The notes under the pieces: model-generated | What the model saw: only the letters and a program-made list of their open reading frames with translations | The model's database searches: none | Told to the model about the DNA's origin: nothing | Program-made: the position numbers and the translations under genes | Origin: Acidobacteria bacterium RIFCSPLOWO2_02_FULL_61_28 | GTDB lineage: Bacteria; Acidobacteriota; Terriglobia; 2-12-FULL-54-10 | Length of the DNA stretch: 50,532 bases | Assembly: GCA_001767035.1 (NCBI GenBank) | Contig: MEKR01000053.1 | Span: 17,474-68,005, forward strand | Reading direction: 5' to 3' | Shown here: positions 30,399 through 32,877 of the stretch, one piece after another | Position numbering within the stretch: position 1 is the stretch's first letter | How the letters are laid out: each line of letters begins with the position of its first letter

Positions 30399-32384
<1,986 letters not shown>

Positions 32385-32418: not shown

Positions 32419-32877
32419 ATGTTGCAAGAAGGCCAACCCGCCCCGGCCTTTGAATTGCCGGACGAGCAGAACCAAACAGTGAAGCTCAAAGACTTTCTCG
32501 GGCATCCGCTGGTCTTCTTCTTTTTTCCCAAGGCGGACACGCCCGGCTGAACGGCGGAAGCAAGCGGGTTCCGCGATGCCTACAAATCCTTTCAGAAGCT
32601 GGGGGCGGTGATTGTTGGGATCAGCGCCGATTCTCCCTCGGCCCAGGATAAATTCAAGAAGAAATACAATCTTCCCTTCCCCTTGCTCTGCGACGTGGAC
32701 CGCAAAGTGGCCGAGGCCTACGGTGTGCTGAAGGAAAGGAACATGTACGGCAAGACGGTCCTCGGCATCGAGCGCACGACGTTCCTCATTGACGCCGCCG
32801 GACGAATCCAGAAGATTTTCCCAAAGGTCAAAGTGGACGGCCACGCCGAGGAAGTGCTGGCGGCGCTGAACGAATGA
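32419..32877 (+). CDS. bcp: Bcp/PrxQ-type peroxiredoxin with in-frame UGA (probable selenocysteine)
   Basis: A 152-residue thiol peroxidase of the PrxQ family, reducing peroxides in the cytoplasm. The ATG at 32419 follows GGAGGGAGA. The sequence FFFFPKADTPG is followed by TGA (32548-32550, codon 44) and then TAEASGFRD: the stop is exactly where PrxQ has its peroxidatic Cys (TPGCT). The frame continues without other stops through VIVGISADSP, LPFPLLCDVD and RTTFLIDAAGRI to TGA at 32875. A SECIS-like stem-loop follows the UGA. The resolving Cys five residues on is Ser, so this would be a 1-Sec enzyme. Selenocysteine is inferred; sel genes are not in the window. Confidence 0.88.
32545..32580 (+). 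promoter_or_regulatory. SECIS-like stem-loop at the UGA codon
   Basis: GGC (32545-32547) can pair with GCC (32578-32580), then an internal loop containing UGA, then a perfect stem GCGGAA (32554-32559)/TTCCGC (32569-32574) closed by the 9-nt loop GCAAGCGGG. The apical stem starts 3 nt after UGA, the position of bacterial SECIS elements read by SelB. Confidence 0.6.

Follow-up and report, generated by a model that had tools for sequence, protein, structure and literature searches.

Does the TGA that lies in frame inside a peroxiredoxin gene of this acidobacterium encode selenocysteine (Sec), some other amino acid, or the end of the protein? The gene occupies 32419..32877 on the + strand of the window, by which we mean the whole stretch of 50 532 nt that was analysed, which lies on contig C53 of the draft genome (3.86 Mb, 199 contigs, 91.7% complete). 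It reads as a single ORF with one inner TGA at codon 44 (32548..32550, + strand) and a terminal TGA at 32875-32877, giving 152 residues if the inner UGA is Sec; directly 5' of the ATG we read a GGGAGGGAGAG stretch. Our analysis, which works from sequence, favors the reading that the gene encodes a Bcp/PrxQ-class peroxiredoxin with selenocysteine as its peroxidatic residue, to which we would assign a probability of about 0.93.

The window protein belongs to the Bcp/PrxQ class: it matches the AhpC-TSA Pfam domain at E 2.4e-42 and the NCBIfam thiol peroxidase model NF006960 at 149.9 bits (cut-off 140), its top PDB structure matches are Bcp/PrxQ entries, the first being an integrative model of a BCP complex, and its AlphaFold model has a pLDDT of 95. 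The TGA falls in a column that is Cys in all three PDB sequences aligned residue by residue, and the residues around it (P37-KAD-T41-PG-U44) form the motif PxxxTxxU, with UGA at the peroxidatic residue. ORF reading and the domain and PDB alignments thus bear out the earlier note, which had placed the TGA exactly at the peroxidatic Cys codon of a Bcp/PrxQ gene. The only Cys besides Sec44, as read from the sequence, is at codon 91 (TGC, 32689..32691, + strand). The shortened ORF starting at 32608 (89 aa) that had been foreseen as the output of automated gene calling is present in the mechanical ORF list, and reading through codon 44 corrects the truncation by a plain ORF caller for this gene.

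TGA does serve as a stop codon here: of the window's 34 non-overlapping ORFs that reach 200 aa or more, 9 end in it. One might accordingly suppose that codon 44 carries a nonsense mutation, leaving a pseudogene or only the short ORF from 32608 to be made, a reading that we consider very improbable. Still less probable is an assembly or sequencing error that turned TGC into TGA, even though the two codons are one base apart and the genome is a 199-contig draft. Relatives speak against both. The search covered 61 genomes, the own one and 60 relatives, and gave matches at E 1e-30 or lower in 57; we tabulated 82 loci (these matches together with 19 loci of named genomes) and kept 76, leaving out L066 (which coincides with G006), L072 (almost a duplicate of L071), the distant L082 and L084, and the fragments L115 and L117. 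Codon 44 is TGA in 24 of these 76 homologues, which come from the own genome and from 23 relatives within its class, and Cys in the other 52. The 24 genomes span six family groups: besides the own genome, the same TGA is found in five relatives of family f1 and in 18 genomes of other families, which argues against error. All six f1 genes that extend over codon 44 have it; G002, the last of the seven f1 genomes, holds a fragment only. The first 138 codons of the 24 Sec genes hold no stop other than codon 44 (the second TGA recorded for three of them is the terminator); rather than the random stops that would have spoken against Sec, relatives share this one TGA. In the window gene compared with five f1 relatives, dN/dS 3' of the TGA is 0.11-0.23, low values that indicate that this part evolves like translated protein, and 5' of the TGA it is 0.07-0.19 in the three f1 pairs with finite dS. 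A nonsense mutation is opposed both by the recurrence across families and by the purifying selection that the tested f1 pairs show 5' and 3' of the TGA.

The alignment also displays the Sec/Cys alternation that the earlier note had proposed to look for, and codon 44 has changed state at least seven times on the tree. The Cys form of G024 is sister to the Sec form of G017 (support 100/98), and the Cys form of G045 is nested in an f6 clade that is otherwise Sec. When 199 genomes were drawn from the phylum, 74 matched at 1e-38, those containing TGA being the own genome, G047, G173, G239, and G247; the codon-44 TGA was verified in the newly found G173, G239, and G247, and 3 of the 26 loci examined in this draw misfit the motif and were left unclassified. 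G239 and G247, of family f36, lie outside the class, and both keep Cys at position 49. The case places a very probable Sec in an antioxidant enzyme, within a soil lineage whose close relatives have exchanged Sec and Cys repeatedly.

Decoding of UGA as Sec calls on the sel genes, and the search for them gave a result in two parts. In the own genome, two SelA, two SelB, and one SelD matches exceed the cut-off, together with one tRNA-Sec (UCA anticodon); another match also passes the tRNA-Sec cut-off, but ARAGORN calls it a tRNA-Ser. The copies of the own lineage are selA on C183 (its SelA shows 74-76% identity to five family members), selB on C17 (its SelB joins its family on a 100/100 branch), and selD on C12 (69-79% identity to four family members for SelD). 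The genome thus has selA, selB, and selD, the want of which the earlier note would have counted against Sec. As an observation in its own right, this selD (G000 C12, L035 6264-7271) itself contains an in-frame TGA, in the context AAG-U-AS, as in Sec-type selenophosphate synthetases.

The one component for which the search fell short is selC. The draft's only tRNA-Sec is held by an intact selA-selB-selC operon on C197 (L031), and we take this contig as foreign because its SelB sits on a very long branch (3.7) apart from the family, its SelA has 51% identity to the C183 copy, and a second YifB, with about 53% likeness to the others, lies on it too. On the same grounds the C197 operon was rejected as the native machinery; the evidence fits transfer and binning contamination alike as its origin. 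The tRNA-Sec search of the 199 contigs (91.7% complete) found no native selC, which, as the only tRNA-Sec sits on a foreign-looking contig, may be missing from this draft assembly; among six family relatives, three have a tRNA-Sec.

The want of a native tRNA-Sec in the own draft lends something to another view of the locus, in which UGA is translated into Cys or a residue other than Sec, say through a tRNA-Cys that reads opal codons and has the shape of tRNA-Sec, and the product is an ordinary Cys peroxiredoxin. A selC-like tRNA-Cys with UCA anticodon has been described, as have allo-tRNAs from Acidobacteria (PMC7609411). In relatives, however, ARAGORN calls tRNA-SeC (UCA) at every tRNA locus scanned (8/8 and 5/5), and selA, selB, and selD are present; we regard such decoding as improbable, if less so than a nonsense mutation. 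The machinery was also compared across genomes. Among genomes at least 90% complete, SelB is found in 19/19 with the Sec form and 21/29 with the Cys form (Fisher p 0.015), and the 8 SelB-less Cys-form genomes of this set lack tRNA-Sec too. The idea that SelB sharply predicts the Sec form was rejected on all 56 classified genomes, where the counts are 22/24 versus 24/32 (p 0.16); the two Sec-form genomes without SelB over the cut-off are G003 (88% complete) and G006 (82%). The tRNA-Sec itself separates little, with 20/24 Sec-form versus 23/32 Cys-form genomes; this search, whose filters were stricter, gave none in four of the 24 Sec-form genomes (G001, G006, G039, and G051, two of which are 97-98% complete).

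Several tRNA-Sec loci were recorded along the way. In G055, G043, G016, and G042 (L201-L204), a tRNA-Sec lies ∼6 kb from the Sec-peroxiredoxin, and G011 has two tRNA-Sec matches 3.6 kb apart (C2:1112064-1115807). G024 carries a very divergent SelB and a tRNA-Sec on one contig (C258, L206) and has no family-type SelB; for this genome, whose peroxiredoxin is of the Cys44/Asn49 form, a swap of machinery along with a Sec-to-Cys reversal is possible.

A bacterial SECIS, according to the published rule, has an upper stem of 4-16 bp that carries a loop of 3-9 nt; this loop lies 16-37 nt from the UGA and has G in its first two positions (PMC13188914). A putative SECIS that conforms to it follows the UGA at 32560..32579 (+ strand): GCA (32560-32562) pairs with UGC (32577-32579) and GCGG (32564-32567) with CCGC (32571-32574), closing an apical GUU loop (32568-32570) at a UGA-to-loop spacing of 17 nt. 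Each of the 76 genes was folded over +7 to +36 after codon 44, and so were 200 synonymously recoded versions of it; the span folded is our choice, and the relatives in the counts that follow are not independent. With stem length disregarded, the rule is satisfied by 23/24 Sec genes (8.1 expected) and 15/52 Cys genes (10.0 expected). Once the stem must measure 4 bp or more, 19/24 Sec genes still pass, down from 23 and with the window gene among them (3.5 expected), and their excess over expectation grows; for Cys genes the count becomes 11/52 (6.0 expected); the five Sec genes that fail at this length are four of f4 and one of f3. A GUU loop at +18 on a stem of this length is found in 16/24 Sec genes (0.67 expected) and 6/52 Cys genes (0.74 expected), and all three later-found Sec genes (G173, G239, and G247) have such a loop and stem. 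We cannot explain the excess among Cys genes for sure: it could be a trace of former Sec genes or reflect another constraint. The window hairpin is not unusually stable against its synonymous recodings (z -0.16, p 0.41), and only 2/24 Sec and 5/52 Cys genes have hairpins individually stabler than their recoded versions (p<0.05).

The hairpin just described is not the one first named. The earlier note had pointed to a stem GCGGAA/TTCCGC, and this stem does exist: when the 42 nt 3' of the TGA are folded alone, the minimum-energy fold holds it and not the GUU hairpin. As a SECIS it was rejected, since its loop starts 9 nt past the UGA, outside the 16-37 nt of the rule, and since most relatives lack it, the overlapping GUU hairpin recurring in most of them instead. 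Its stem sets in 4 nt after the UGA. The mRNA at that distance lies in the zone covered by the decoding ribosome. The call for a SECIS check was answered by a rule-conforming hairpin, GCGG-GUU-CCGC, in place of the stem proposed. Together, selA, selB, and selD, the recurrent TGA, the Sec/Cys alternation, and the hairpin enrichment support the reading of codon 44 as Sec.

Upstream, 34 bases from the peroxiredoxin gene, lies gatB (30399..32384, + strand; Pfam GatB_N and GatB_Yqey). It is a recurrent neighbour: of 7 relatives looked at, 5 (those of f1 and f4, but neither of the two f3 genomes) have gatB on the peroxiredoxin stretch too, two of them with one ORF between the genes. The window GatB has ∼160 extra C-terminal residues (31884-32384) relative to the GatB of G004 (505 aa), with no Pfam match there, and these represent either a fusion or a misread junction. 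Elsewhere in the own genome, on the minus strand of contig C88 (G000, L002, 1501-1950), a second AhpC-TSA protein has TGA at the TxxU residue (FTAG-U-TQE), and a signal-peptide-like stretch precedes its AhpC-TSA part; it is probably an exported second Sec-peroxiredoxin.

Codon 49 of the window gene (AGC, Ser; 32563..32565, + strand), five residues past the peroxidatic position (CP+5), is the site of the resolving Cys in many PrxQ, and the alignment confirmed the earlier assignment of Ser there. Position 49 is other than Cys in 21/24 Sec forms and 4/52 Cys forms, a comparison that leans on relatedness, because only about two of five independent pairs agree with it (none opposite, three without difference). 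Of the four Cys forms that lack Cys49, G018b and G053b have a Cys at position 80 instead. No Cys at all is seen in ten of the 24 Sec forms, among them G049, which a contig end cuts short, and in an eleventh, L058, the lone Cys sits in our own extension before the start. The six f1 proteins have exactly one of two Cys each, four having Cys91 without Cys49 and two Cys49 without Cys91. The SECIS does not forbid Cys49, as G005 and G006 keep it along with hairpins that are among the most stable. Tentatively, and at somewhat less than even odds, we suggest that the lineage's gain of Sec frees the enzyme from the classical resolving Cys, making it a 1-Sec peroxiredoxin, that the second thiol of f1 proteins shifts from position 49 to 91, and that the apparent Sec-to-Cys revertants G024 and G045 keep a non-Cys49 as a trace of a selenoprotein past; if true, G024 would be left with one Cys in all. 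What is less ordinary in these findings is that Sec and Cys have switched repeatedly and that the resolving Cys was lost or relocated along with this. Such natural Sec/Cys pairs, with and without the resolving Cys and otherwise little different, could serve to test the old question of why proteins keep Sec, for speed or for resistance to overoxidation.

For the insertion of Sec, and for the substrate, reductant, and resolving step of the enzyme, we infer the following course. The UGA at codon 44 would be decoded by Sec-tRNA-Sec delivered by SelB, which would bind the GUU-loop hairpin 17 nt downstream. The selenolate at residue 44 would then attack H2O2 or an organic peroxide, as follows from the family, and an outside thiol or Cys91 would resolve the resulting selenenic acid, a role proposed because CP+5 is Ser in the window protein.

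A Prx family (COG1225, TxxU) is among the listed bacterial selenoprotein families (PMC9312934, PMC13188914, PMC1088965, PMC1794560, and PMC5029168), and 43 Sec-Prx genes are given for the Sargasso Sea (PMC1088965). The premise that Sec-containing peroxiredoxins exist is thus sound, and the window gene is a new addition to an established family. Among the titles and abstracts that our literature searches listed we found no Sec-Bcp of Terriglobia, and among the open-access papers listed for the resolving Cys or PrxU no loss of the resolving Cys together with Sec. For Acidobacteria, 4 selenoproteins of 3 families are reported (PMC1794560), and for Occallatibacter riparius, 3 known selenoproteins (PMC12013277); the selenoproteins counted in either source may include the Sec-Bcp family.

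Set beside individual systems, the window protein shares with the Cys enzymes PrxQ of Xanthomonas campestris (5iiz) and 5enu of Burkholderia ambifaria a close structural likeness (TM 0.92-0.94, 43-44% identity), and differs in its predicted peroxidatic Sec and in having no Cys at CP+5; its Lys80 aligns with the Xanthomonas PrxQ Cys that is mutated in the C84S entry. PrxU of Eubacterium acidaminophilum is reportedly a Sec-containing peroxiredoxin too, said to have been described by Sohling in 2001, and the likeness to the window protein lies in Sec, which for the latter is predicted. Against NF040737 (peroxi_PrxU), which from its name we take to be the model of that protein, the window protein scores 51.6 bits, below the cut-off of 270. 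AhpE of Mycobacterium tuberculosis, a 1-Cys peroxiredoxin, likewise lacks the usual resolving Cys, but it belongs to another subfamily (29-30% identity to the window protein) and uses Cys. The nearest counterpart is the selenoprotein Prx (COG1225/Bcp), with which the window gene has in common the family and a PxxxTxxU motif whose peroxidatic residue is encoded by UGA (PMC9312934 and PMC13188914), and from which this lineage stands apart in that 21 of its 24 Sec forms have no Cys at CP+5, a count that describes members of this lineage only.
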